Positions 5,213 through 18,948 of a stretch of 64,000 nucleotides of DNA are shown here, in pieces. The notes beneath the pieces were generated by a model that was given only the letters and a program-made list of their open reading frames with translations, did no database searches and had not been told where the DNA came from. Made by a program: the position numbers and the translations under genes. Source of the DNA: Tabrizicola soli (lineage in GTDB: Bacteria; Pseudomonadota; Alphaproteobacteria; Rhodobacterales; Rhodobacteraceae); NCBI RefSeq assembly GCF_015999335.1, contig NZ_JAEACP010000003.1:124001-188000 (forward strand), written 5' to 3'. Within the stretch, counting starts at the first letter, position 1. Every line of letters begins with the position of its first letter.

Positions 5213-6238
5213 ATGGATGACAGCATGACGAACGGAAACTTCCTGGTCTCTCGGCGCGGTCTGCTTCTGGGCGGCGCGGCCGCCTTGATCGCGACAAACC
5301 TGCCGCGCGGCGCCTTCGCGCAGGAACCGCTGAAGATGGCGGGCATCTACACGGTGCCGGTCGAACAGCAATGGGTCAGCCGCATCCACATCGCCGCCGA
5401 GGCGCTGAAGGTGGCGGGGACGGTGGACTATACCTATACCGAGAATGTGGCGAACACCGACTATCCCCGCGTGATGCGCGAATATTGCGAGGCGGGGGTC
5501 AAGCTCATCGTCGGCGAGATCTTCGGGGCCGAGGCCGAAGCGCGCGAGGTCTGCGCGGAATATCCCGACGTGGCCTTCCTTCTGGGGTCGAGCTTCCCGC
5601 CGGACGAAGCCGCGAATCCGAACCTCGGTGTCTTCGACAACTACATCCAGGACGCGGCCTACCTGTCCGGCATCGTCGCGGGCGGCATGACCAAGGGCAA
5701 TATCGGCATGGTCGGCGGCTTCCCGATCCCCGAGGTGAACCGCCTGATGAACGCCTTCATGGCCGGCGTGCGCGAGGTGAAGCCGGATACGAAATTCCAG
5801 GTCAGTTTCATCGGCTCGTGGTTCGACCCGCCGAAGGCCAAGGAGACCGCCTTCGCGATGATCGACGGCGGCGCGGACCTGATGTATGCCGAACGCTTCG
5901 GCGTCTCGGATGCCGCCAAGGAACGCGGCGTGCTGGCGATCGGCAACGTGATCGACACGCAAGCCGACTACCCCGAGACGGTGCTGACCTCCGCGCTCTG
6001 GCATTTCGAACCCACCCTGAACGCCGCCGTCGCTGCGATCCAGGGCGGGGCGTTCAAGGCCGACAACTACGGCGTCTATTCCTACATGAACGCGGGCGGC
6101 TGCTCGCTGGCGCCACTCGGCACCTTCGAGGGCAAGGTTCCGGCCGAGGTCATGGCCAAGGTCGCCGAGAAGGAAGCGGCGATCAAGGACGGCAGCTTCA
6201 CCGTCGCCATCGACGACAGCGAGCCGAAATCGTCGTGA
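5213..6238 (+). CDS. BMP-family ABC transporter substrate-binding protein
   Basis: This is a periplasmic receptor of 341 residues in the basic membrane protein/Med family, which binds nucleosides or related purine compounds. The N terminus has a twin-arginine-like signal (SRRGLLLGG, 13-21) with likely cleavage after AFA (36). The mature part shows the family pattern KMAGIYTVPVEQQWVSR, SSFPPDEAANPN and GGADLMYAER. Translation could begin at 5213 or at ATG 5225 (MTNGN), which has better spacing from AGGGG. It starts a coupled operon with ATPase, two permeases and an amidohydrolase, so its ligand is probably a nucleobase or nucleoside rather than a sugar. Confidence 0.9.
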   Translation: MDDSMTNGNFLVSRRGLLLGGAAALIATNLPRGAFAQEPLKMAGIYTVPVEQQWVSRIHIAAEALKVAGTVDYTYTENVANTDYPRVMREYCEAGVKLIVGEIFGAEAEAREVCAEYPDVAFLLGSSFPPDEAANPNLGVFDNYIQDAAYLSGIVAGGMTKGNIGMVGGFPIPEVNRLMNAFMAGVREVKPDTKFQVSFIGSWFDPPKAKETAFAMIDGGADLMYAERFGVSDAAKERGVLAIGNVIDTQADYPETVLTSALWHFEPTLNAAVAAIQGGAFKADNYGVYSYMNAGGCSLAPLGTFEGKVPAEVMAKVAEKEAAIKDGSFTVAIDDSEPKSS

Positions 6239-7767
6239 GCAAGGATGAAGGGGCGGAGGTCGTCCTCCGCCTCGACCGCATTTCCAAGAGCTTCGGCGCG
6301 CTGAAGGCCAACGACGCCGTGTCGCTGGCCCTGCGGCGCGGCGAGGTCGTGGCGCTGCTGGGCGAGAACGGCGCCGGCAAGACCACGCTGATGAACATCC
6401 TTTTCGGTCACTACATGGCCGACGAGGGGGGCGTGGAGGTCTTCGGCCAGCCTCTCCCCCCCGGCAACCCCCGCGCCGCGCTGGCGGCCGGGGTCGGCAT
6501 GGTGCACCAGCATTTCACGCTGGCGGGCAACCTGACGGTATTGGAGAACATCCGGCTCGGGACCGAACGTCTCTGGGCGCGCCGCCATCCGGATTCGCGC
6601 GGGAAGGTGGAGCGCCTGTCGCGCGACTTCGGCCTGGCCGTGCATCCCGACGCCAAGGTCGGCCGTCTCTCGGTCGGCGAGCGCCAGCGGGTCGAGATCC
6701 TGAAGGCGCTTTACCGCGACGCCCGGATCCTGATCCTGGACGAGCCGACCGCCGTCCTGACCCCGCAGGAATCCGACGCCCTGTTCGCCACCCTGCGCAA
6801 GGCGACCGCCCTCGGTCTCTCGGTGATCTTCATCAGCCACAAGCTGCACGAGGTCATGGCCATCGCCGACCGCTGCATCGTCCTGCGCCACGGCCGCGTG
6901 GTCGGCGAGGTCGATACCCACGCCACCGACAAGGGCCGCCTCGCCGCGCTGATGGTGGGGGGCGAGCTTTCCCTGCCCCGCGCCGAGGCCCGCGCGCCGG
7001 GCCCGGTGCTGATGCAGCTGGACGGCGTGACCACCCCCGACCGCGGCGCGGTGCCGGGGCTGAAACGGCTGACGCTGGCGCTGCGCGCGGGCCAGATCAC
7101 CGGGCTTGCCGGCGTCTCGGGCAACGGCCAGGCCGCGCTGGCCGAAGTCATCGCGGGTCTTGCGCTGCCCTCTGCCGGGACGCTGACGGTGCACGGTGCC
7201 CCGGTGACCGACTGGTCGCCCCGCGCCGCGCTGGCGAAAGGCGTCGGCCGCATCCCCGAGGACCGGCACCACCAGGGCTCCATCGGCGACTTCGACCTGA
7301 CCGAGAACGCGGTGCTGGAGGCCTACCGCTCCCGCTTCTCGCGCCGGGGCTGGATGAACTGGCGCGCCGCCCGTGCCTTCGCGCAAGAGATCATCGCGAG
7401 CTACGACGTGCGCTGTCCCGGTCCTGAAACCCGCATCCGGCTCCTCTCCGGCGGCAACATGCAGAAGCTGATCCTGGGCCGCGCCATGGCCTCGGGGCCG
7501 GACATCATCCTGGCGAACCAGCCGGTGCGGGGTCTGGACGTGGGCGCGATCGCCTATGTCCAATCCCAGCTGATCGCCGCCCGCGACCGGGGTGCGGCGG
7601 TGCTGCTGATTTCCGAGGATCTGGACGAAATCATGGGCTTGTCTGACGTCATTCATGTAATCTCTCAGGGCCGCCTCTCGCCCGGTTTCGCCCGGGGCAG
7701 CATGTCGGCGGCCGATCTCGGCCTCTGGATGGCCGGCCAGAAGTTCGAGGGCGCGGATGCGGCTTGA
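6235..7767 (+). CDS. ABC transporter ATPase, two NBDs (nucleoside/nucleobase type)
   Basis: This is a tandem nucleotide-binding subunit of 510 residues. NBD1 has Walker A GENGAGKTT (43-51), LSVGERQR and LILDEPTAVLTP. NBD2 has the degenerate P-loop usual for this group (GVSGNGQAALAEV), LSGGNMQK and an altered Walker B (IILANQPVRGLD). This asymmetry is normal in BmpA/YufO-type and sugar ABC ATPases. The start is GTG 6235, overlapping the TGA of the binding protein (GTGA), and the 3' end overlaps the next permease by 11 bp, so translation is coupled through the operon. Confidence 0.92.
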   Translation: MSKDEGAEVVLRLDRISKSFGALKANDAVSLALRRGEVVALLGENGAGKTTLMNILFGHYMADEGGVEVFGQPLPPGNPRAALAAGVGMVHQHFTLAGNLTVLENIRLGTERLWARRHPDSRGKVERLSRDFGLAVHPDAKVGRLSVGERQRVEILKALYRDARILILDEPTAVLTPQESDALFATLRKATALGLSVIFISHKLHEVMAIADRCIVLRHGRVVGEVDTHATDKGRLAALMVGGELSLPRAEARAPGPVLMQLDGVTTPDRGAVPGLKRLTLALRAGQITGLAGVSGNGQAALAEVIAGLALPSAGTLTVHGAPVTDWSPRAALAKGVGRIPEDRHHQGSIGDFDLTENAVLEAYRSRFSRRGWMNWRAARAFAQEIIASYDVRCPGPETRIRLLSGGNMQKLILGRAMASGPDIILANQPVRGLDVGAIAYVQSQLIAARDRGAAVLLISEDLDEIMGLSDVIHVISQGRLSPGFARGSMSAADLGLWMAGQKFEGADAA

Positions 7768-8800
7768 AGCCATCGCCAACCCCTCGGCCGCGCGCCGGCT
7801 GGGCCTGCCCGCGCTGGCGATCGCGGCAACCATGCTGGTCGCCATGCTGCTTGCGCTCATTGCCGGGGCCAACCCGCTCGCCGTCCTCGGCCAGATCGCC
7901 AAGGGCGCGCTGGGGTCGAAGCTGGCGATCCTGGAGACGCTGAACCGCGCGACGCCGCTGATCTTCACCGGCCTCGCCGTGGCCGTCGCCTTCCGCGCCA
8001 GGCTCTGGAACATCGGCGCCGAGGCGCAGCTTTACGCCGGCGCGATCATCGCCGTCGTCCTTGGCACCGGCGCCCTCGGCGGTCCGCTGGTCCTGCCTCT
8101 CTCCGCCCTTGCGGCGATGCTGGCCGGGGCGGCGCTGCTCCTTGGTCCCGTGCTCCTCAAGACCCGGCTTGGCGTCGACGAGGTCGTGACCACCCTCCTT
8201 CTCAACTTCATCATGCTCCTCCTCGTCGGCTATCTTCTGGAGGGCCCGATGAAGGACCCGATGGGCATGGGCTGGCCGAAATCCACCCCGCTGATCCCCG
8301 AGGCCCGCCTGCCCCGGATCGTCGACGGCTTGCGCCTGCACTGGGGTTTCGCGCTGGCGATCATCGCCGCCGTCGCCGTTTGGGTGATCCAGACCCGCAC
8401 CACGCTCGGCTTCGAGATCCGCGCCGTCGGCCAGAACCCCGAGGCCGCCCGTTTCGCCGGGATGCCGGTCAACGCGGTGCTGGTGAAAACCGCCCTCCTC
8501 TCCGGCGGCCTTGCCGCGCTGGCCGGCTGGTCCGAGGTCGCCGGGCTGAAGGGGCATCTCTCCTCCGACCTCTCGCCGGGCTTCGGCTATACCGGGATCA
8601 TCGTCGCCATGCTGGCACTCCTGCACCCGCTCGGCGTCGTCGTGACGGCGATCTTCGTCGCCGGGATCTTCGTCGGCTCGGACGCGATGAGCCGGGCGGC
8701 GGGCGTGCCGACCTATATCGCCGACATGCTGATGGCGACCGCGCTTCTGTGCATGGTGCTGGCCATCCTTCTGACCAGGGTAAGGGTGGTGCGCGGATGA
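7757..8800 (+). CDS. ABC transporter permease (BPD_transp_2 family), first subunit
   Basis: This is an inner-membrane permease of 347 residues with about 8-10 hydrophobic helices and the family signature near residues 80-95 (VAFRARLWNIGAEAQLYAGA). It also carries the EVVTTLLLNFI and RAVGQNPEAARFAGM stretches typical of nucleoside/nucleobase YufP-like permeases. It is coupled to the ATPase upstream and overlaps the second permease by 4 bp (ATGA). It should form the heterodimeric channel with that protein. Confidence 0.9.
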   Translation: MRLEAIANPSAARRLGLPALAIAATMLVAMLLALIAGANPLAVLGQIAKGALGSKLAILETLNRATPLIFTGLAVAVAFRARLWNIGAEAQLYAGAIIAVVLGTGALGGPLVLPLSALAAMLAGAALLLGPVLLKTRLGVDEVVTTLLLNFIMLLLVGYLLEGPMKDPMGMGWPKSTPLIPEARLPRIVDGLRLHWGFALAIIAAVAVWVIQTRTTLGFEIRAVGQNPEAARFAGMPVNAVLVKTALLSGGLAALAGWSEVAGLKGHLSSDLSPGFGYTGIIVAMLALLHPLGVVVTAIFVAGIFVGSDAMSRAAGVPTYIADMLMATALLCMVLAILLTRVRVVRG

Positions 8801-9741
8801 GCGAGATCATCGACATCCTGATCTCGGCCAGCTTCTGGGCCGCCGTGATCCGCATCGCCTCGCCCCTGATCCTGGCGACGATGGGCGAGCTGATCTGCGA
8901 ACGCGCCGGGGTGCTGAACCTCGGCATCGAGGGGATCATGGTCATCGGCGCCTTCGCGGGCTGGATGGCGGTCTACCAGGGGATGCCGCTCTGGGGCGGT
9001 GTCGCGGTGGCGATGGGCGCGGGGATGCTGTTCGGCCTCCTGCATTCCACCCTGACGGTGCCCTTCGGCCTGTCGCAGCACGTCGTCGGCCTCGGCGTGA
9101 CGCTGCTCGCCACCTCATCGGCCTCCTTCGCCTACCGTCTGATGCTGCCCGAGGTCACCAGCCCGCCGAAGATCGCCCCCTTCCAGCCGCTGCACATTCC
9201 GGGTCTTTCCGACCTGCCCTGGCTGGGCGCGGCCCTCTCGCAGACCGCGCTGACCTGGGCCGCCTTCGCCATGGCCGGCGGCGTCGCCTTCACCCTCTAC
9301 CGCACGCCCCTCGGCCTCGCCGTCCGCGCCGTGGGCGAGAACCCGGCGGCGGTGGAAGCACAGGGCCTGTCGGTCACCGGCCTGCGCATGGGGGCGGTGA
9401 TCGTCGGCTCCGGCCTGATGGCGGTGGGCGGGGCGTTCCTGACGCTCTCCGCCTTCTCCTCCTTCTTCTTCGAGATGGTCAACGGCCGCGGCTGGATCTG
9501 CATCGCGCTGGTGGTGTTCGGGGCCTGGAGGCCCGGCAAGGCCGTCCTGGGCGCGATCCTCTTCGCCGCCTTCGACGCCTTGCAGATCCGCCTGCAACAG
9601 ACCCCGCTCGGCGCGGCCCTGCCCTACCAGCTGTTCCTCGCCCTGCCCTTCATCCTCTCCATCCTGGCCCTGATCCTGATGTCCCGCCGCGCCGAAGTGC
9701 CGGCGGCGCTGATGGTGCCCTACAACAAGGGGGAACGCTGA
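8797..9741 (+). CDS. ABC transporter permease (BPD_transp_2 family), second subunit
   Basis: This is a 314-residue permease and partner of the preceding one, YufQ-like. It shows the conserved LICERAGVLNLGIEGIM stretch near residues 28-44, AVGENPAAVEAQGLS, and NGRGWICIALVVFGAWRP near the C terminus. ATG 8797 overlaps the previous stop. The amidohydrolase gene starts immediately after the stop codon (9742), again indicating one transcript. Confidence 0.92.
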   Translation: MSEIIDILISASFWAAVIRIASPLILATMGELICERAGVLNLGIEGIMVIGAFAGWMAVYQGMPLWGGVAVAMGAGMLFGLLHSTLTVPFGLSQHVVGLGVTLLATSSASFAYRLMLPEVTSPPKIAPFQPLHIPGLSDLPWLGAALSQTALTWAAFAMAGGVAFTLYRTPLGLAVRAVGENPAAVEAQGLSVTGLRMGAVIVGSGLMAVGGAFLTLSAFSSFFFEMVNGRGWICIALVVFGAWRPGKAVLGAILFAAFDALQIRLQQTPLGAALPYQLFLALPFILSILALILMSRRAEVPAALMVPYNKGER

Positions 9742-11004
9742 ATGTTCGATCTTCTGGTCAAGGGCGGCACCCTGCCCGACGGCACCCAGGCCGACATCGG
9801 CATCAAGGGCGACCGCATCGCCGCAGTGGGCAAGCTGGAAGCCGAGGCCGGACGCGTGATCGACGCCACCGGCGACCTGGTGTCCCCGCCCTTCGTCGAC
9901 CCGCATTTCCACATGGACGCGACCCTCTCCTATGGCCTGCCCCGCGTGAACGCCTCGGGCACGCTGCTGGAAGGCATCGCGCTCTGGGGCGAGTTGCGCG
10001 AGATCGCGACGGTCGAGGAGATGGTGGACCGCGCGCTCCGCTATTGCGACTGGGCGGTCAGCATGGGGCTCTTGGCGATCCGCAGCCATGTCGATACCAC
10101 GCCCGACCACCTGCGGGGCGTCGAGGCGATGCTGGAGGTCAAGGCCCTTGTCGCGCCCTACCTCGACCTGCAGCTGGTCGCCTTCCCGCAGGACGGGCTT
10201 TACCGCACGAAAACCGGCCGCGAGAACGTGGTCCGCGCGCTGGACATGGGCGTGGACGTCGTCGGCGGCATCCCGCATTTCGAGCGCACGATGGAGGAAG
10301 GGGCAGAAAGCCTGCGCGACCTCGCCCGGATCGCCGCCGAACGCGGCCTGATGTGGGACGTCCATTGCGACGAGACCGACGACCCGATGTCCCGCCATGT
10401 CGAGACCATGGCGCGCGAGGTGACGCGGCACGGGCTGGGCGGCCGGGCGGCGGGCAGCCACCTGACCTCGATGCATTCGATGGACAATTACTATGTCTCG
10501 AAACTCCTGCCGCTGATCGCCGAAAGCGGCATGGCCGCGATCCCGAACCCGCTGATCAACATCACCCTGCAGGGCCGCCACGACAGCTATCCCAAGCGCC
10601 GCGGCCTGACCCGGGTGAAGGAGATGCAGGCGATGGGCATCCCGGTCGGCTGGGGCCAGGACTGCGTGCTGGATCCCTGGTATTCGCTGGGCACCGCCGA
10701 CATGCTGGACGTGGCCTTCATGGGCCTGCATGTCGCGCAGATGACCCATCCGGCCGAAATGGCGCGCTGTTTCACCATGGTGACCGAGACCAACGCCCGG
10801 ATCATGGGGCTGGACCACGGACTGCAACCGGGCCGCCTGGCCAGCCTCGTGGTGCTGGACGCCGTCAACCCGGTCGAGGCGCTGCGCCTGCGGCCGGATC
10901 GGCTGGCGGTGGTCTCGAAAGGCCGGGTGGTGGCCGAACGGCAGCGCAACGACGCCCGGCTGGCGCTGCAGGGCCGTCCGGCCTCGGTCCGCCGCCGCCT
11001 CTGA
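9742..11004 (+). CDS. Cytosine deaminase-like amidohydrolase
   Basis: This is a cytoplasmic amidohydrolase of 420 residues, close to E. coli CodA in length and motif layout. The metal-binding HFH (H55, H57), HCDE (H208, E211), H240 in GSHLTSMHS and D307 in GWGQDCVLDPW match in order and spacing the CodA residues H61/H63, H214/E217, H246 and D313. It starts directly after the permease stop. Placement in the uptake operon suggests it deaminates or opens the imported base. Cytosine is the simplest guess, but relatives act on isocytosine, guanine-like bases and other heterocycles, so the substrate is inferred only. Confidence 0.78.
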   Translation: MFDLLVKGGTLPDGTQADIGIKGDRIAAVGKLEAEAGRVIDATGDLVSPPFVDPHFHMDATLSYGLPRVNASGTLLEGIALWGELREIATVEEMVDRALRYCDWAVSMGLLAIRSHVDTTPDHLRGVEAMLEVKALVAPYLDLQLVAFPQDGLYRTKTGRENVVRALDMGVDVVGGIPHFERTMEEGAESLRDLARIAAERGLMWDVHCDETDDPMSRHVETMAREVTRHGLGGRAAGSHLTSMHSMDNYYVSKLLPLIAESGMAAIPNPLINITLQGRHDSYPKRRGLTRVKEMQAMGIPVGWGQDCVLDPWYSLGTADMLDVAFMGLHVAQMTHPAEMARCFTMVTETNARIMGLDHGLQPGRLASLVVLDAVNPVEALRLRPDRLAVVSKGRVVAERQRNDARLALQGRPASVRRRL

Positions 11005-11312: not shown

Positions 11313-13388
11313 ATGGCGCAGCAGAAGGCTGTCGAGGCTCCCGAGCCGGAGCTTGAGGACCTCGTCGACGAGCTGGAACCCGGAACCAGGCTGCTCAAGG
11401 GGCAGTATACGATCACCCGCTACCTGAACAGCGGCGGCTTCGGGATCACCTATCTCGCCCGCGACAGCCTGGACCGGGACGTGGTGATCAAGGAATGTTT
11501 CCCCGCCGCCTTCTGCCGCCGCAGCCAGAGCCTCGTCGCCGCCCGCTCGCGCGCGCATACGGCCGAACTGCGCTCGGTCGTGCAGCTTTTCGTGAAAGAG
11601 GCGCGGAATCTCGCCAAGATCGTGCATCCGAACATCGTCGCCGTCCACCAGGTGTTCGAGGACAACGGCACCGCCTACATGGCGATCGACTTCATCGACG
11701 GCTTCGATGTGCAGCAGATCATCGACGGCCTGGGCACGACACCCACGCCGGCGCAGATCGTGACGATCACCGAAAAGCTTCTTGCGGCCGTCGGCTTCAT
11801 CCACGACCACGACATGCTGCACCGCGACATCTCGCCCGACAACGTGCTGATCGACAAGAAGGGCGAGCCGATCCTGATCGACTTCGGCGCCGCGCGGGAA
11901 CAGGCCAGCCAGAAAAGCCGCGCCATGTCGGCGCTGCGGGTGGTGAAGGACGGCTATTCGCCGCAGGAATTCTACATCGCCGGCTCGGAACAGGGCCCGT
12001 GGAGCGACCTTTATGCCCTGGGGGCCACGCTTTACCACCTGATCTCGGGTGAGGCGCCGATGAACGGCCAGGCCCGGCTTGCCGCGCTCGCGGATGACCG
12101 GCCGGATCCCTATCTCCCCCTCGCCGGGCGCTTCGCAGGCTATCCGCCGGGTTTTCTCGAGGCGATCGACCGCGCGCTGAACACCCTGCCCAAGCAGCGG
12201 GTGCAGTCGGCGAAGGAATGGCTGGTGATGTTCCGCCGCGCCGCCCCCCCGCCGCAGCGCGATGCAACGGCCGAAGCCGTGCGCCAGACCGTCGTCGGCT
12301 TCGCCCAGGAACAGGCCGAGCCCGCCGCTCCGGCAACTGCCGTGGCCGCAGACGCTGTCGCCCCCCCTCCGCCGGCGCGCCCCGTCTCGACCCCCGCGCC
12401 CGTGTCGCCTCCCCCGCAGGCCAGGTCCGGCCGCAACCCGGCCCAGGTCGTCGCCGGGGTTTCGGTGGCGCTGGCGGTGATCCTCGGGGCCTATGTCATG
12501 CTCGGCCGGGGCGATGCGCCGGCCCCGGCGGTGGTCGCCACGGCCGCCACCGCCAGCGCGGCGCCCGTCCCGGCGGCGGCAGCCCCCATGCCGGCGGCCG
12601 CCGAAACGGCCGAGGCTCCGGTCCCGGCCGAACCCGCCCCGCCCGCTGTCGCCGAGACCGTCGCGGCAAGCGAGCCCGCAGCCCCCACCCCGGCCGAGGC
12701 AAAGCTTCCGGCCGATGCCAACCGTTCCGCCGACGAAGCCACCATCATCGAGGCCGAGGCCACCCTCGCCGCGCCCCTGGGCACCCCGGCCGAGGCTCAG
12801 ATCGCCTTCTCGGTCTGGGATGTGCAGATGCCCTTCGACAGCACCAGCCGCATCGTCGGGGACGAAAAGGTGACCGTCATCTCGCGGCTCGACAGCCGCA
12901 GCGATCTCCAGGTCGCGGGCGACTGGCTTGCCCCCGGCCTGCGGCTTTACGCCGTCAACGGCGTTCCGGTTGCCGAGGGCAAGGATTTCACCGCCGCCGT
13001 GCTGGATGCGCTGCATGTCGATCCCGACGGCCGCGCCCGGGTGGTGGTGGACTATGCCGCTCCCGGCGCGGCTTCCCGGACCGGCCTCCTCACCGTTCCG
13101 ACCGTGCGCCTCGTCACGCTGGCAAACGGGGTCGGCCTGGCAATCAGCCATCAGGAGGAGGGCTGGAAAACCGTCGTCACCGGCGTCGCCGACCCTGCCG
13201 CCACCGACCTGATGCCCGGCGACGTCCTGTTCCGCGAAAAGCAGACCCAGGCGCTTTTCGACCAGCCCGATGCGGTGGACGCGGTGCTGAAGACCCTTGT
13301 CGGGAAGGGCGAAACCCTGGCCCATCTGTCGGTGGTGCGCCAGAACCAGGTCGTCAGCGGCGCGATGCGCCTCGCCTTGGCCGAGTGA
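11313..13388 (+). CDS. Transmembrane Ser/Thr protein kinase with C-terminal extracytoplasmic domain
   Basis: This is a Hanks-type kinase of 691 residues. The kinase domain spans about 32-310: glycine loop NSGGFG (39-44), Lys60 in VVIKE, HRDISPDN (170-177), DFG (190-192), and GYSPQEFY in place of APE. Serine replaces the usual Lys in HRDxKPxN, as in some bacterial subfamilies. A Pro/Ala-rich linker follows, then one TM helix (about 379-397), a long Ala/Pro/Glu-rich stalk and a C-terminal part (about 485-691) with two PDZ-like stretches (GLRLYAVNGVPVAEGKDF; TDLMPGDVLFREK). The C-terminal part should lie outside the cytoplasm and could sense ligand or protein. It heads the LysM/solute-binding cluster. 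Confidence 0.9.
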   Translation: MAQQKAVEAPEPELEDLVDELEPGTRLLKGQYTITRYLNSGGFGITYLARDSLDRDVVIKECFPAAFCRRSQSLVAARSRAHTAELRSVVQLFVKEARNLAKIVHPNIVAVHQVFEDNGTAYMAIDFIDGFDVQQIIDGLGTTPTPAQIVTITEKLLAAVGFIHDHDMLHRDISPDNVLIDKKGEPILIDFGAAREQASQKSRAMSALRVVKDGYSPQEFYIAGSEQGPWSDLYALGATLYHLISGEAPMNGQARLAALADDRPDPYLPLAGRFAGYPPGFLEAIDRALNTLPKQRVQSAKEWLVMFRRAAPPPQRDATAEAVRQTVVGFAQEQAEPAAPATAVAADAVAPPPPARPVSTPAPVSPPPQARSGRNPAQVVAGVSVALAVILGAYVMLGRGDAPAPAVVATAATASAAPVPAAAAPMPAAAETAEAPVPAEPAPPAVAETVAASEPAAPTPAEAKLPADANRSADEATIIEAEATLAAPLGTPAEAQIAFSVWDVQMPFDSTSRIVGDEKVTVISRLDSRSDLQVAGDWLAPGLRLYAVNGVPVAEGKDFTAAVLDALHVDPDGRARVVVDYAAPGAASRTGLLTVPTVRLVTLANGVGLAISHQEEGWKTVVTGVADPAATDLMPGDVLFREKQTQALFDQPDAVDAVLKTLVGKGETLAHLSVVRQNQVVSGAMRLALAE

Positions 13389-13395
13389 GGGATCC

Positions 13396-13554
13396 ATGTC
13401 GCAAAAGCCGCGCCGGGCCGTTCTCGACCCCGAGGAGATCACCATCGAGCCTCCCGGCGCCCCCTCTGCGGCCGTGCACATGCTGGACAATGTGATCGCG
13501 GCGCTGGACCGCGCGATCCTGCGCCAGACCGCCCGCAATCCGCAGGAGCACTGA
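13396..13554 (+). CDS. Small hypothetical protein, 52 residues
   Basis: This short gene starts eight bases after the kinase stop, with GAGG at 13386-13389 as ribosome-binding site. The product is soluble and charged at the start (MSQKPRRAVLDPEE) with an amphipathic C-terminal helix (VHMLDNVIAALDRAILRQT). I do not recognise a family. Its position and coupling to the kinase suggest an accessory protein or a kinase substrate; Thr19 and the C-terminal Thr are the only obvious acceptors beside Ser residues. Function is unknown. Confidence 0.55.
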   Translation: MSQKPRRAVLDPEEITIEPPGAPSAAVHMLDNVIAALDRAILRQTARNPQEH

Positions 13555-13634
13555 CCGCCAGATCCCGGCGCCCGCTTCGGCCCGATCGCCGCCGCGCCCT
13601 GCGACCCCTTCCGCCCACAGGAGAAAAGCCTGCC

Positions 13635-14747
13635 ATGAACACCATGAAGATGCTGGCCCTGGGCTGCACCGCGCTGACCCTGACCGGCGGATTGGCCGCA
13701 GCGCAGGAGACCTGCGGCAGCCATGTGGTCAAGGCGGGCGACAACCTGCGCTATATCGCCCGGGACGTCTATGGCGACGCCGATCTCTACCGGATGATCT
13801 ACGAGGCGAATGTCGACCTGATCGGCGCCAAGGCCGACCATATCGAGATCGGCATGAGCCTGCGCCTGCCCTGCGCCGGAGGCCAGACCGGGGGGGACCA
13901 GACCGGGGGGGACCAGACCGCAGCCGCCCAGCCGGCCGCCGAAGCGACCGTCCAGCCCGCAGCGGCCGATGCCGCGCTTCCCGCCGCCGATTCCGCTCCC
14001 GAAGCGCCGCAAATGCCGCTGCGGATCGTCACCGTGAACCACTTCGCCCCCTATGTGGACGAAAACCTGCCCGGCGGCGGCATGTTCACCCAGCTGGTCG
14101 AGATGGCGGTCTTCCGCGCCGACCCGTCGATCCCCTATTCCCTGACCTTCATCAACGACCCGCAGGCGCATATCGACGCGCTCCTGCCCTCGCTGGCCTA
14201 TGACCTGAGCTATCCCTGGATCCGCCCCGATTGCGAAAATCCCGATACGCTGAACGCCGGCGACCTCTCGCGCTGCGAGGATTTCGCCTTCTCGGCCCCC
14301 TTCCTCGAGATCGTCGACGGCTTCTTCACCCGCCGCGACAGCGACCTCTTCGCCGCCACCCGCTACGGCGACCTTGCAGGCAAGCGGATCTGCCGCCCCG
14401 AGGGCTATACCACCGGCGTGCTGGAGGCGAACGGACTGGGCGCGGGCCAGGTGGAACTCTCGCGCCCCGAGCGCGCCTCCGACTGTTTCGAGGCCTTGGC
14501 CAGGGGCGAGGTGGACCTGGTCTCGATCGACGCCGAAGTGGGCGATTCCGTGGTCGCCCGGCTGGGACTCGTGAAGGAAGTGGAACAGAACCCGCATCTG
14601 GCCGAGATCACCAGCCTGCACATCATCGCCCACAAGTCGAACCAGCGCGCCGTGGACATGCTGGCCAGCCTCGATGCCGGCATCATCGAGATGTACGACT
14701 CTGGCGAATGGTACGAGATCGTCTCGTCCGCGCTGAACCCGCAATGA
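13635..14747 (+). CDS. Secreted LysM - solute-binding domain protein, copy 1
   Basis: This is an exported protein of 370 residues with signal peptide 1-23 (cleavage after LAAA). A LysM domain (about 30-78: HVVKAGDNLRYIARDVYGD) should bind peptidoglycan. A low-complexity linker with GGDQT repeats follows, then a periplasmic binding fold (about 130-370) of the SBP_bac_3 type (LRIVTVNHFAPYVDENLPGGG, DLVSIDAEVGDSVV). Fusing a cell-wall anchor to a solute receptor suggests a wall-tethered ligand sensor rather than a transporter component, since no permease is nearby. It has a paralogue next door and follows the transmembrane kinase. The ligand is unknown. Confidence 0.85.
   Translation: MNTMKMLALGCTALTLTGGLAAAQETCGSHVVKAGDNLRYIARDVYGDADLYRMIYEANVDLIGAKADHIEIGMSLRLPCAGGQTGGDQTGGDQTAAAQPAAEATVQPAAADAALPAADSAPEAPQMPLRIVTVNHFAPYVDENLPGGGMFTQLVEMAVFRADPSIPYSLTFINDPQAHIDALLPSLAYDLSYPWIRPDCENPDTLNAGDLSRCEDFAFSAPFLEIVDGFFTRRDSDLFAATRYGDLAGKRICRPEGYTTGVLEANGLGAGQVELSRPERASDCFEALARGEVDLVSIDAEVGDSVVARLGLVKEVEQNPHLAEITSLHIIAHKSNQRAVDMLASLDAGIIEMYDSGEWYEIVSSALNPQ
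13883..13920 (+). repeat. 15-bp tandem repeat with G7 tracts
   Basis: A 15-bp unit (CCAGACCGGGGGGGA) occurs twice in full (13883-13897, 13898-13912) and then for 8 bases. It encodes the GGDQT repeat in the linker of the LysM protein. Each unit holds a run of seven G. Confidence 0.95.
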
Positions 14748-14938
14748 CAGGTGCGACATGAAACAGCCCCGGTGCCGCGGCATGAAATCCCTGGATTGCC
14801 TGACGCATTTCTCCAGTGAATCCACCGATTTGCCATAATCGTGCCATGTCGGCGGTTCTTGCTGGGTTCTGTAACCAGTATTGTTTCAGTTTCGTGTCCA
14901 CCCGCTCCTTCCGCAAAAGACGATAGAGGACCGTTGAA

Positions 14939-16033
14939 ATGAACCTTGCTTCCGGAAAGTCCCGCTCCGTCGCCCTTGCGGCATTGCTGCTTGCCCTGCC
15001 GGCTGTCGCTGCGGCACAAGAGGCCTGCACGACCTATACGGTGAAGGACGGGGACACGCTGGGGTCGATCGCGCAGGCGGCCTATGGCTCCTACGACTAC
15101 CAGATGATCTTCAACGCCAACCGCGACGCGCTGGCCGCGAACCCCAACAGCCTGCCCGCCGGCCTCCAGCTGATCCTGCCCTGCGAGGACGGTCGCCTCA
15201 CCGCCGATTCCGAACTCAACGCCGTGATCCAGGCCGAGACCGAGCGTCAGGCCGCCGCGCCCAAGCGCAACAAGACCTACGAGCCGCCGCTGAAATTCGT
15301 CTCCTCGAACAACTGGATGCCCTTCGCGGACGAAAGCCTCACCGGCGGCGGGATCTTCGTGCGCATGGCCGCCACCGCGATGCAACGCGGCGGCAACGAC
15401 CGGGGCTACGAGATCTCCTATGTCGACGACTGGATGTCGCACATCGACGTGCTCTTGCCGACCGGAGCCTTCGACGTGTCGGTCGCCTGGGAGGCGCCGG
15501 ACTGCACCAAGCTCGACCTCCTGGGCGAGTTCGCCATCCGCATGTGCACCGAATTCGACTTCTCGCTGCCGATCTACGAGACCGCCTATACCTTCAACAC
15601 CCTGGTCGACAGCAAATATGCCGAGGCCCGGACCTTCGCCGACTATGCCGGCGCGCGGATCTGCCGGCCCGAGGCCTGGCCGACCAGCGACCTCGAGGTG
15701 CAGGGCCTGGTCGAACCGATGGTGACCTACGCCCATCCGAAGAACCCGCTGGACTGCGCCCAGATGCTGCTGGATGGCCAGGTCGACCTCTATTCGATCG
15801 AGGCCGAGACGGTGACGGCCAACTTCGAGGAACTGGGGGCCTCGGACCGCGTGGCCCCGAACCCGGCGCTGGCGACCTTCATCACCTATCATTTCCTGAC
15901 CTCGAAGAGCAATCCGCGCGGCCGCGTCTACATCGCCATGCTGAACCGCGGCATCACCGAGATGCGGGAATCCGGCGAATGGTATGACATCGTCGCCACC
16001 GGCCTGGACGAATACAACAAGCTCAGCCAGTAG
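14939..16033 (+). CDS. Secreted LysM - solute-binding domain protein, copy 2
   Basis: This 364-residue paralogue of the preceding gene has a signal peptide 1-26 (cleavage after VAAA), LysM at about 32-80 (YTVKDGDTLGSIAQAAYGS), a shorter linker, and a binding-protein domain from about 97 (LKFVSSNNWMPFADESLTGGG). The two share many stretches, for example ARICRPEAWPT against KRICRPEGYTT and SGEWYDIV against SGEWYEIV, which points to tandem duplication. It has its own 190-bp upstream gap and ends at a clear intrinsic terminator, so it may be transcribed separately from copy 1. Confidence 0.85.
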   Translation: MNLASGKSRSVALAALLLALPAVAAAQEACTTYTVKDGDTLGSIAQAAYGSYDYQMIFNANRDALAANPNSLPAGLQLILPCEDGRLTADSELNAVIQAETERQAAAPKRNKTYEPPLKFVSSNNWMPFADESLTGGGIFVRMAATAMQRGGNDRGYEISYVDDWMSHIDVLLPTGAFDVSVAWEAPDCTKLDLLGEFAIRMCTEFDFSLPIYETAYTFNTLVDSKYAEARTFADYAGARICRPEAWPTSDLEVQGLVEPMVTYAHPKNPLDCAQMLLDGQVDLYSIEAETVTANFEELGASDRVAPNPALATFITYHFLTSKSNPRGRVYIAMLNRGITEMRESGEWYDIVATGLDEYNKLSQ

Positions 16034-16052
16034 GTCCGGGCCGTCGATCCTG

Positions 16053-16085
16053 AAAGCCCCGTGCCGCAAGGTGCGGGGCTTTTCG
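16053..16085 (+). terminator. Rho-independent terminator
   Basis: AAAGCCCCG (16053-16061) pairs with CGGGGCTTT (from 16074), giving a 9-bp GC-rich stem that runs into a T tract. It closes the LysM/solute-binding cluster 20 bases after the stop codon and separates it from the inositol cluster. Confidence 0.85.
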
Positions 16086-16094
16086 ATTCCATAT

Positions 16095-16110
16095 TGGAAC
16101 ATCTGTTCCA
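16095..16110. promoter_or_regulatory. IolR-type operator upstream of iolR
   Basis: The perfect palindrome core GGAA-CATCTG-TTCC (16096-16109) is flanked by T and A. It matches the GGAA-N6-TTCC site reported for RpiR-type IolR in rhizobia. It lies 17 bp before the regulator's start codon, as expected for autoregulation. Confidence 0.75.
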
Positions 16111-16126
16111 TATGCTATAAGGCCTG

Positions 16127-16945
16127 ATGCCCCGGGAAACCCCCTCCGATCCCCCCGCCACGGTCGAGGCCTTCCGCGAGCGTCTGATGGCGCTGTCCGG
16201 CACCCTGCCGCGCCGGTTGCAGCAATGCGCCGACCATCTTGCGGGCCATCTCGACCAGATCGCGCTTTCGACCGTGGCGCAGATCGCACGGGGCGCTGGC
16301 GTTCCGCCCTCGGCCATGATGCGCTTTTGTCAGATCATGGGCTTTTCCGGTTATGCCGAGATGCAGCGCCTGTTCCGCGAGGCGCTCTCCACCGCGCCGC
16401 CCGATTATGCGACGCGGCTGGCGAACCTCAAGGGGGCCGGGCATCCGGCCACCCTTGTCGCCGAATTCGTCGAAGCCGGGCGTCAGTCGATGGAAGCCCT
16501 GGCGCGCGATCTGGATGAAACCGCGCTGAATCAAGCGGTTGAGACCTTGTCCCGCGCCCGCGCCATCCATCTTGCGGGCTTCCGCCGTTCGTTCCCCGTG
16601 GCCTCATACCTGGCCTATGTGCTGGACAAGCTGGGCCTTCCGGCGATCCTGCATGACGGGGTGGCCGGGCTTGGCCAGCGCACCATCCTGCAGCCCGGCG
16701 ATGCGCTTCTGGCCATCACCTTCGCACCATATTCCGACGAAACCCTCGCCCTTGCCCGCGAGGCCCGCGCCCGGGGCCTGCCGGTCGTCCTTCTGACCGA
16801 TCCCCCGGCCACGCGTCTGGCGGGTCTGGGCGACACCATCCTCACCGTGACCGAAATCGACTTCGGCGCCTTCCGCTCGCTCTCCGCCGTGATCGCGCTG
16901 GCACTCTCGCTGGCGGTGGCGGTGGCGGCCCGACGCGAAACTTGA
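16127..16945 (+). CDS. iolR: RpiR/MurR-family regulator of inositol catabolism
   Basis: This is a DNA-binding regulator of 272 residues. The N-terminal helix-turn-helix (about 45-90: STVAQIARGAGVPPSAMMRFCQIMGFSGYAEMQ) has the RpiR pattern. A SIS sugar-phosphate binding domain spans about 130-250 (AIHLAGFRRSFPVASYLAYVLDKLG). It sits directly before iolC, and a GGAA-N6-TTCC palindrome precedes both genes. The family usually represses and is released by an inositol-pathway phosphate intermediate. The assignment as IolR rests on context and operator sequence, with strong agreement between them. Confidence 0.88.
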   Translation: MPRETPSDPPATVEAFRERLMALSGTLPRRLQQCADHLAGHLDQIALSTVAQIARGAGVPPSAMMRFCQIMGFSGYAEMQRLFREALSTAPPDYATRLANLKGAGHPATLVAEFVEAGRQSMEALARDLDETALNQAVETLSRARAIHLAGFRRSFPVASYLAYVLDKLGLPAILHDGVAGLGQRTILQPGDALLAITFAPYSDETLALAREARARGLPVVLLTDPPATRLAGLGDTILTVTEIDFGAFRSLSAVIALALSLAVAVAARRET

Positions 16946-16966
16946 CGCTTCCCTGATTGCAGGATT

Positions 16967-16982
16967 TGGAATAAACATTCCA
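16967..16982. promoter_or_regulatory. IolR-type operator upstream of iolC
   Basis: TGGAATAAACATTCCA contains GGAA-TAAACA-TTCC (16968-16981) with flanking T/A that extends the palindrome. TTGACG at 16942-16947 could be the -35 element of an iolC promoter, which would place the operator over the -10 region and so block RNA polymerase. It lies 40 bp before ATG 17023. Confidence 0.75.
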
Positions 16983-17022
16983 TACCCCGGCAGACGACTC
17001 GCCCCGGTTCCACGGAGCCTCC

Positions 17023-18948
17023 ATGTCCCAGACCCGCCCGCTCGACGTCATCACCATCGGCCGCGCCTCGGTCGACCTTTACGGCGCGCAGATCGGCGGA
17101 CGGCTGGAGGATATGGGCTCGTTCCAGAAATACATCGGCGGCAGCCCCACCAACATGGCCGCCGGCACCGCCCGGCTGGGGCTGAAGTCCGCCCTGATCA
17201 CCCGCGTCGGCGACGAACACATGGGCCGCTTCATCCGCGAGGAACTGGCGCGCGAAGGCGTCGACGTGCGCGGCGTCCGGACCGACCCCGAGCGGCTGAC
17301 CGCCCTCGTCCTCCTCGGCATCCGCGACGACAAGCAGTTCCCGCTGATCTTCTACCGCGAGAACTGCGCCGACATGGCGCTCTGCGAGGACGACATCGAC
17401 GAAAGCTTCATCGCCGAAGCCCGGTCGGTCGTCGCCACCGGCACGCATCTCTCCAACACGAAGACCGAAGCCGCCGTCCTCAAGGCCCTCACCCTCGCCC
17501 GGAAGCACGGGCTGCAAACCGCGCTGGACATCGACTACCGCCCGAACCTCTGGGGCCTTTCGGGCCATGGCGACGGCGAGAACCGCTTCATCGAATCCGC
17601 CGGCGTCACCGCCAAGCTGCAATCCACCCTGCACCTTTTCGACCTGATCGTCGGCACCGAGGAGGAATTCCACATCGCCGGCGGCTCGACCGACACCATC
17701 GCCGCGCTGCGCGCCGTGCGGGCCGTGTCCGGGGCCACCCTCGTCTGCAAGCGCGGCCCGATGGGCGCCGTCGCCTTCACCGGCGCGATCCCCGACAGCC
17801 TCGACCACGGCGAGACCGGCCCCGGCTTCCCGATCGAGGTCTTCAACGTCCTCGGCGCGGGCGACGGCTTCATGTCCGGCCTGATCAAGGGCTGGCTCGA
17901 CGGCGAGCCCTGGCCCACAGCCCTCAAATACGCCAACGCCTGCGGCGCCTTCGCCGTCAGCCGCCACGGCTGCACCCCGGCCTATCCCAGTTGGGAAGAG
18001 TTGCAATTCTTCCTTCAGCGCGGCGTGGTCGAAAAGGCGCTCCGCAAGGACGCCGCCCTCGAACAGGTCCACTGGGCGACCAACCGCCACGGTGACCACT
18101 CCACCATGCGCGTCTTCGCCTTCGACCACCGGATGCAACTGGAACAGATGGAGGGCGCCACCCCATCCAGGATCGGCGCGTTCAAGCAACTGTGCCTGCA
18201 GGCCGCCCTGCAAGTGGCGGGTGGCAAGCCCGGCTACGGCATTCTCTGCGACAGCCGCCTCGGCCGCGACGCCCTCTTCCAGGCAGCAGGCACCGGCCTC
18301 TGGATCGGGCGGCCAGTCGAATGGCCCGGCTCCCGCCCCCTGACGCTGGAGCCCGAGATCGGCCCCGACTTCGGCGGCCTTTCCGAATGGCCCTTGGAAC
18401 AGGTGGTCAAGGTCCTCTGCTTCTATCACCCCGACGACGACGCGGCCACGAAGGCGCAGCAGGAGGATACCGTCCTCCGCCTCTTCCACGCCTGCCGCCG
18501 CAACCGGCTGGAGATGCTCTTGGAGATCATCCCCTCCAAGGTCGCCCCCGTCACCGATACCACCAGCGCCGAAGTGATCCAGCGCCTCTACGACCTCGGC
18601 ATCTATCCCGACTGGTGGAAGCTGGAACCCTTCGCCACCGACGCCGCCTGGGAAAACGCCTGCGCCGCCATCACCGCCAACGACCCGCATGTGCGCGGCG
18701 TGGTCGTCCTCGGCCTCGACGCCAGCGAAAAGGACCTCTCGGCCTCGCTGGCCCTTGCGGCAAAGCACCCGCTGGTGAAAGGCTTCGCCATCGGCCGCAC
18801 CATCTTCGCCGACGCCGCCCGCGCCTGGCTGAAGGGCCAGATGACCGACGCCGAGGCCGTCACCCTGATGTCCGACCGTTACGCCCGCCTTGCCGCCCTC
18901 TGGGACAGCAAATGCGCAGAGTGGGCCCGCGAGGGAGCAAGCCAATGA
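17023..18948 (+). CDS. iolC: 5-dehydro-2-deoxygluconokinase fused to DUF2090 domain
   Basis: This enzyme phosphorylates 5-dehydro-2-deoxy-D-gluconate in myo-inositol degradation. The 641-residue protein has a PfkB kinase domain (1-330) with GGSPTNMAAG near the start and the catalytic GAGDGF at about 278-283. A second domain (about 365-641: VFAFDHRMQLEQ, LEMLLEIIPSK, VVVLGLDASEKDL) belongs to the aldolase-like DUF2090 family. The fusion is common in proteobacterial IolC and may supply the following aldolase step. It overlaps iolD by ATGA, so the cluster is translationally coupled. Confidence 0.93.
   Translation: MSQTRPLDVITIGRASVDLYGAQIGGRLEDMGSFQKYIGGSPTNMAAGTARLGLKSALITRVGDEHMGRFIREELAREGVDVRGVRTDPERLTALVLLGIRDDKQFPLIFYRENCADMALCEDDIDESFIAEARSVVATGTHLSNTKTEAAVLKALTLARKHGLQTALDIDYRPNLWGLSGHGDGENRFIESAGVTAKLQSTLHLFDLIVGTEEEFHIAGGSTDTIAALRAVRAVSGATLVCKRGPMGAVAFTGAIPDSLDHGETGPGFPIEVFNVLGAGDGFMSGLIKGWLDGEPWPTALKYANACGAFAVSRHGCTPAYPSWEELQFFLQRGVVEKALRKDAALEQVHWATNRHGDHSTMRVFAFDHRMQLEQMEGATPSRIGAFKQLCLQAALQVAGGKPGYGILCDSRLGRDALFQAAGTGLWIGRPVEWPGSRPLTLEPEIGPDFGGLSEWPLEQVVKVLCFYHPDDDAATKAQQEDTVLRLFHACRRNRLEMLLEIIPSKVAPVTDTTSAEVIQRLYDLGIYPDWWKLEPFATDAAWENACAAITANDPHVRGVVVLGLDASEKDLSASLALAAKHPLVKGFAIGRTIFADAARAWLKGQMTDAEAVTLMSDRYARLAALWDSKCAEWAREGASQ

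Follow-up and report, generated by a model that had tools for sequence, protein, structure and literature searches.

Which function ties a transmembrane Ser/Thr kinase to two exported proteins that join a LysM domain to the fold of solute-binding proteins (SBPs)? The question is raised by a gene group in a 64,000-nucleotide stretch of the Tabrizicola soli genome (assembly GCF_015999335.1, contig NZ_JAEACP010000003.1), hereafter the window, which lies on contig C23 of a 4.68-Mb genome (G000). An initial annotation, made from the sequence alone, had grouped the kinase (P0001), a 52-aa protein and the two LysM-SBP proteins, here called SBPa (P0002) and SBPb (P0003), and had explained the set by a wall-anchored receptor signalling through the kinase. 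Kinase, SBPa and SBPb are a real and conserved unit, a variant of the transmembrane kinase with periplasmic partners. With moderate confidence, the LysM-SBPs are viewed here as wall-bound ligand receptors, which would regulate the kinase via its PDZ part and have a reversible phospho-output.

Conservation of the kinase-SBPa-SBPb unit

Relatives of the unit were compared in 78 named loci, drawn from the 80 top-ranking of 181 confirmed places and picked by SBPb similarity. Genes were called by an in-house open reading frame (ORF) picker, guided by homology first, then by length and GC position. The SBPa-SBPb pair was found in 56 of the 78 loci, and in 52 of these the kinase gene is present as well, on one strand and in one order; in three of the 52 (L116, L132, L151) the outer end of the kinase alone is seen, at a contig edge. 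The four pairs without kinase (L114, L153, L168, L174) all reside on short contigs or at contig edges. Locus L176 has kinase, FHA, PP2C and dynamin genes and one recognised SBP. The remaining named loci include ten copies in mur clusters, and 11 loci with neither pair nor kinase.

The interval between kinase and SBPa differs among the 52 loci: no gene was called in 34, an opposite-strand ORF in 7, a 52-aa gene in one, FHA and PP2C genes in 10. The window's cytosine deaminase, RpiR and sugar-kinase-type neighbours are shared by 19, 21 and 22 loci, respectively. Genes around and between the trio being variable, the kinase-SBPa-SBPb linkage is kept while neighbours move. The conserved gene order that the initial annotation proposed to look for is therefore found for the trio, but does not extend to the 52-aa gene. 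The latter does follow the kinase, as do the two exported proteins, but has no Pfam match. A homologue resides in Tabrizicola aquatica (L113; 55% identity, E 2.7e-9), weak pieces were found in L134 (E 0.008) and L114 (E 0.037), and none in another set of loci searched. With homologues confined to near relatives, the ORF was rejected as a conserved component.

Among 295 genomes of the family, a P0002 relative was found in 54 (E<=1e-10) and the kinase outer domain in 24 (E<=1e-5); 34 of the 54 SBP genomes lack the outer domain. At the strict cut-offs used in a 385-genome sample of the class, the outer domain was found in 2 genomes (E<=1e-6) and the SBP in 3 (E<=1e-25), all in the window's family. 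The best SBPb matches are Tabrizicola and Rhodobacter records. The SBP pair stands beside the kinase in 11 of the 24 outer-domain genomes, and probably, across a contig break, in G195; G022 and G285 have one recognised SBP a few genes away. Seven plasmid records, of Roseobacteraceae, include P0002 relatives, so that plasmid carriage is real. Of four plasmids examined, three (one from Leisingera, two from Ruegeria) carry the kinase gene and two SBP genes along with those for FHA, PP2C and dynamin. The other, from Phaeobacter G2, has two SBPs and no annotated kinase. A phage origin was considered and rejected, as P0003 had no match among 50,697 phage records, and P0002 no confirmed relative in IMG/VR. 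The unit was not retained as a defence system either; in PADLOC, P0001 gave matches of kinase type, and the dynamins matched LeoA/LeoBC weakly.

In the kinase tree, a single clade with support of 100/98 has SBP-linked kinases in 56 of its 57 rows. The remaining row, L096, has no SBPs, and one SBP-linked kinase, the divergent L033, falls outside the clade. L102 is labelled as SBP-linked though its SBPs are on another contig, L176 though one SBP was recognised. Rows L100 and L111 were retained in spite of their very long branches. The tree omits kinases shorter than 550 aa as well as L126, L149, L151, L160, L162, L171 and L178; these seven come from the same contigs as other loci, and L126 and L151 are thereby unrepresented. 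A second kinase clade lacks SBPs, and FHA, PP2C and dynamin genes follow the kinase in several of its loci. Loci of this kinase-FHA-PP2C-dynamin type are L101, L103, L106, L107, L108 and L109.

Domains of the kinase and of the LysM-SBP proteins

The catalytic set of P0001 is intact, with the glycine loop at residue 41, the VIKE lysine at 58, HRD at 170 and DFG at 190. The same elements were found in 50 of 51 kinases of this architecture; the remaining one is truncated, on a contig of 5.6 kb. P0001 and the T. aquatica (L113) copy are 79% identical over the 500 columns used in the tree. According to hydropathy, one hydrophobic segment (residues 379–397) is preceded by an Arg-bearing stretch; exactly one segment was found in 46 of the 51 kinases, a second, weaker one in 5. 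By this pattern the C-terminal part of the kinase is computed to lie outside, as the initial annotation presumed, and not in the cytoplasm. The 294 residues placed outside comprise a low-complexity Ala/Pro-rich linker and a folded region of about 196 residues starting at 496. The AlphaFold2 (AF2) model of the latter, extended by ten residues, has a mean predicted local distance difference test (pLDDT) score of 95.7, and its best PDB matches in Foldseek are DegP chains with the PDZ tandem (E 1.2e-5, moderate TM-scores). Profile searches with the outer domain matched Deg-type proteases weakly (E 0.023–0.045). Pfam PDZ is absent from P0001 itself, and PF00595 was matched at E<=1 by 11 of 30 members of the outer-domain alignment (best 1.4e-5). 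The outer part is thus predicted, from the model, to consist of two PDZ domains, in keeping with the PDZ-like stretches first noticed in the outer part of about 290 residues beyond the transmembrane (TM) helix. A WDxxxP stretch marks 56 of 57 SBP-linked kinases and none of 15 other kinases, a contrast that is suggestive only because the two groups nearly coincide with clades.

Two further kinases of the same genome (L016:9804-10940 and L018:9736-10812) have kinase domains 63% and 58% identical, and terminate in a TM helix, without outer domain. One of them abuts a lytic-transglycosylase-like gene (by eye).

The N-termini of P0002 and P0003 look signal-like by eye, and the hydropathy cut-off is passed by P0003 only. 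LysM had been assigned to both proteins; PF01476 is just above cut-off in P0003 (21.2 bits vs 20.9) but below it in P0002 (16.3 bits), and was matched at E<=0.01 by 50 of the 59 members of the SBP alignment A2. The P0003 LysM part is nearest in sequence to the LysM of Kbp. The complete SBP_bac_3-type domain ascribed to both is not confirmed by Pfam in either protein (PF00497: P0002 13.5 bits vs 26.4, E 0.063; P0003 not matched), but is supported by 14 of the 59 A2 members, which match at E<=0.01 (best 6.1e-6), and by the AF2 model of P0003 (mean pLDDT 89.2), whose top Foldseek matches are amino-acid SBPs (E 7.6e-13, TMt about 0.7). The test of the two-lobed fold rests on this model, the SBP call for P0002 on profile comparison. 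The VFT2 domain of BvgS (3mpl) ranks 25th and an SBP-like sensor domain of a histidine kinase (3h7m) 32nd in the Foldseek list, which also includes ancestral cyclohexadienyl dehydratase and its precursor; an enzyme role for P0003 is therefore formally possible.

Six Cys residues are invariant across the 59 SBPs, two flanking LysM and four within the SBP domain. In amino-acid SBPs, an Arg and an Asp hold the bound amino acid; both residues align in the comparison of the SBPa profile with AncQR. Arg is kept in 14 of 20 SBPa proteins and replaced in 6; Asp is found in 17 and Glu in 3, and P0003 also has Glu. These data bear on the view, which we consider unlikely, that LysM-SBPs are structural elements which tether or stabilise the kinase complex at the wall, the SBP fold no longer sensing a ligand. 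LysM and the six Cys fit a rigid anchor, the loss of Arg in 6 proteins points the same way, and in Serratia the periplasmic protein RtkS is reported to be required for stability of the kinase PpkA (PMC6082577); retention of Asp (or Glu) and, in most proteins, of Arg argues against it, as does the fact that every one of the 52 units, albeit selected for having the pair, contains two or more diverged SBPs. Docking of the SBP C-terminus into a PDZ groove was also considered; no conserved hydrophobic tail was seen by eye in the alignments, and such docking is not claimed.

LysM-SBP genes also occur apart from kinases. A close P0003 paralogue of the same genome, about 73% identical, lies between mraY and murD on contig C12 (L008:13953-15047). 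Similar genes were found in the cell-wall cluster of related species (L138, L140, L142, L143, L146, L152, L159), and mur genes adjoin the SBPb match in 10 of the 78 named loci. Single LysM-SBP genes reside 3' of an NfeD gene (L076, Pfam) and of an SPFH/stomatin-like gene (L052, by eye); L039, L040, L064 and L081 are alike by gene sizes. In some loci, the opposite strand carries an OmpA-type (L066, Pfam) or a MotA/TolQ-like gene (L080, by eye). A third LysM-SBP type forms tandem pairs, with no kinase labelled, in L006, L049, L053, L057, L060, L061, L068, L074 and L075. In class B, which comprises 24 LysM-SBP loci lacking a kinase (one copy alone was called in some of them), a TM-like protein precedes in 6 and an alpha/beta-hydrolase-type family follows in 11, and no neighbour is common to all.

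The location of kinase-less relatives between mraY and murD, and as single genes by NfeD-type genes, would suit LysM-SBPs acting as outputs, that is, envelope proteins of wall maintenance co-expressed with or controlled by the kinase. We regard this as quite unlikely, since in 52 of 56 loci the kinase clade retains the SBPa-SBPb pair, and since SBP-less kinases have a different outer domain, a contrast confounded by kinship.

The position of all features is given in Table 1. The hairpin at the 3' end is likely a terminator closing the unit, and was not listed by a consensus terminator scan. The statement that no ABC permease or ATPase is present holds inside the interval 11,313–16,033, but an ABC transporter lies directly upstream. 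Could the SBPs work in uptake together with an ABC permease, possibly this one, the kinase being an unrelated neighbour? In favour are the fold, shared with the amino-acid SBPs of ABC systems, and the deaminase gene, which is kept by the unit in 19 of the 52 loci and is preceded by transporter genes in the window. The upstream permeases, however, are of the BPD_transp_2 type, not of the amino-acid type, and we take such permeases to pair with other SBPs; no deaminase was labelled in the other 33 loci, and LysM would tie the protein to the wall. A role in uptake is thus very improbable.

Table 1. Features of the unit and of its surroundings (positions in the window)
Feature	Position	Strand	Evidence or remark
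BPD_transp_2-type ABC transporter and cytosine deaminase genes	5371-11004		Directly upstream of the unit
Cytosine deaminase gene	9742-11004		5' neighbour of the kinase gene
P0001, transmembrane Ser/Thr protein kinase, 691 aa	11313..13388	+	Pkinase E 8.6e-28, catalytic motifs, one hydrophobic segment
Cytoplasmic kinase domain, residues about 26-310	11388..12242	+	Pfam and motifs
Predicted TM helix, residues 379-397, N-inside	12447..12503	+	Hydropathy and flanking Arg
Periplasmic tandem PDZ-like part, residues 496-691, with WDxxxP stretch	12798..13385	+	AF2, Foldseek
52-aa ORF, lineage-specific, outside the conserved set	13396..13554	+	Homologue search
SBPa (P0002), LysM and SBP-fold, export-type start, 370 aa	13635..14747	+	
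SBPa LysM-like domain, residues 30-79	13722..13871	+	Pfam E 0.0095; NF008399 E 6.8e-9; both below cut-off
SBPa solute-binding-protein-like domain	13995..14738	+	Profile A4 vs AncQR, E 1.2e-6
SBPb (P0003), LysM and SBP-fold, export-type start, 364 aa	14939..16033	+	
SBPb LysM domain, residues 33-81	15035..15181	+	Pfam E 2.8e-4, 21.2 bits vs cut-off 20.9
SBPb solute-binding-protein domain	15290..16021	+	AF2 model and Foldseek
Strong hairpin, T-rich 3' side	16052..16083	+	ViennaRNA fold of 16030-16100, -33.4 kcal/mol
RpiR-like regulator gene, then sugar-kinase-type gene	16127-18948		Downstream neighbours; named by eye

Partner genes and proposed mechanism

The gene set first described was incomplete, as it missed the FHA, PP2C and dynamin genes of related loci. 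FHA and PP2C genes were found together in 20 of the 52 loci, either 3' of the SBP pair (10 loci) or between kinase and pair (10 loci), and PP2C alone in one. Dynamin-family genes reside in 19 loci, 18 of which have FHA and PP2C also. The three domains (Dynamin_N, FHA, PP2C) were found by Pfam in the copies tested, and the Dynamin_N GTPases stand in pairs or threes. The window's genome has a second module, made by a paralogous kinase and FHA/PP2C/dynamin-type genes, located where contigs C25 and C57 end. That the two ends join is inferred, since C14 and C8 also end in pieces of this PP2C gene. All four contig ends thus bear pieces of one PP2C gene, as if a repeated copy had collapsed in assembly.

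The dynamin DynB was found in 77 of the 295 family genomes (E<=1e-20), far beyond the kinase, and most DynB genomes lack a P0001-type outer domain. It is present in 23 of the 24 outer-domain genomes (G146 excepted) and in 54 of the 271 that lack this domain (p 5e-14 in a Fisher test, kinship ignored), and in 6 of the 34 SBP genomes lacking the domain. The dynamin tie therefore goes with the kinase, not with the SBPs as such. Kinase, FHA and PP2C recall the threonine phosphorylation pathway (TPP; review PMC10482370), and might suggest that the kinase regulates a type VI secretion system (T6SS), as PpkA does. Such a role is extremely improbable: the T6SS genes seen in this genome (named by eye) are on contig C7 with a separate kinase, which matches P0001 in the kinase domain only (28%), and the recurring neighbours in sister loci are dynamins.

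Parts, folds, topology, linkage and co-occurrence have been computed; contact of the receptors with the kinase, their ligand and their binding to the wall, as well as phosphorylation and its output, are what we infer. In the receptor reading, SBPa and SBPb would be exported and held on peptidoglycan through LysM. Their two-lobed domain, probably disulfide-braced, would bind a small ligand, which may be an amino acid or an amino-acid compound derived from the wall, and the SBPs may dock on the tandem-PDZ part and regulate the kinase, which would phosphorylate cytoplasmic targets. In fuller loci, the FHA protein would read the phospho-mark and the PP2C phosphatase erase it, dynamin-family GTPases being the likely output, as gene order and co-occurrence suggest. 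In the window's genome, the FHA, PP2C and dynamin parts are located elsewhere. It is possible, and is proposed tentatively, that the whole is an envelope-signalling system, in which LysM-SBPs sense a peptidoglycan-derived or other small molecule, drive the PDZ-type kinase and, via FHA and PP2C, switch dynamins that remodel the inner membrane; the window's genome would then have two split loci still cooperating.

Several observations weigh against a receptor role. The 78 loci are not independent, having been selected by SBPb similarity with close relatives among them, and conserved linkage inside that one clade is little proof, given that 19 of the 52 also keep the deaminase gene upstream. The WDxxxP distribution follows the kinase tree, and the Fisher tests take no account of kinship. 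LysM scores are weak, Arg is replaced in some SBPa proteins, and P0003 has Glu instead of Asp. Genes for FHA, PP2C or dynamin were not seen next to the kinase in the window. In 9 of the 24 outer-domain genomes, of which all but G146 were examined at the kinase, no SBP stands beside it, and the PDZ part therefore need not be an SBP dock. Relatives of each part occur apart, outer-domain kinases without adjacent SBP included: the trio is linked, yet LysM-SBPs are found in the mur cluster, in kinase-less pairs and singly. Of the explanation first given, signalling by a receptor through the kinase, linkage and topology stand; the 52-aa gene has left the set, and the parts are not always together.

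To our knowledge, the regulators of bacterial dynamins and the signals sensed by Gram-negative Ser/Thr kinases are poorly characterised. Receptor, kinase, phospho-reader, eraser and membrane GTPases are tied here by gene order and co-occurrence, in some cases in named cultured strains, so that both questions become testable. The tie suggests an undescribed way for the cell to sense its envelope and, perhaps, to act on membranes.

Comparison with known systems

Searches of open-licence PubMed Central texts with narrow word combinations retrieved no description of the kinase/LysM-SBP set, nor of dynamins coupled to kinase, FHA and PP2C; for the set, this is weak evidence of absence. Bacterial dynamins, including LeoABC of PADLOC, resemble the Dynamin_N GTPases of sister loci, but the LeoA/LeoBC matches of the latter are weak only. 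PASTA domains bind wall fragments, and PASTA kinases (PknB/Stk1) resemble P0001 in being Ser/Thr kinases with a single TM helix and a wall-facing outer portion. Unlike them, P0001 scores 134 bits with NF033483, against a cut-off of 450, over residues 26–395 only (to the TM helix), and has a PDZ-like outer part. BvgS-type sensor kinases also use the amino-acid-SBP fold in signalling, as the match to 3mpl recalls. The SBP (Venus-flytrap) domains of BvgS are part of the histidine kinase itself, whereas the protein with this fold is here encoded separately, next to a Ser/Thr kinase gene, and is probably bound to the wall.

The PpkA-Fha-PppA-RtkS system of Serratia marcescens likewise features a membrane Ser/Thr kinase with an outer domain and a linked gene for a periplasmic partner, and FHA and PP2C partners, here found in fuller loci only, are common to the TPP pathway (PMC10482370, PMC3953482). 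The two differ in that the partners here are LysM and SBP-fold proteins, the outer domain appears to be a PDZ tandem, and dynamins, not T6SS genes, recur beside the kinase. As reported in PMC6082577, both the stability of PpkA and the phosphorylation of Fha depend on periplasmic RtkS, which binds PpkA at the outer domain and whose gene is linked to those of the TPP; RtkS is described there as unrelated to known small-molecule binding proteins. By analogy, RtkS-PpkA is the closest tested precedent for a periplasmic partner of the kinase.

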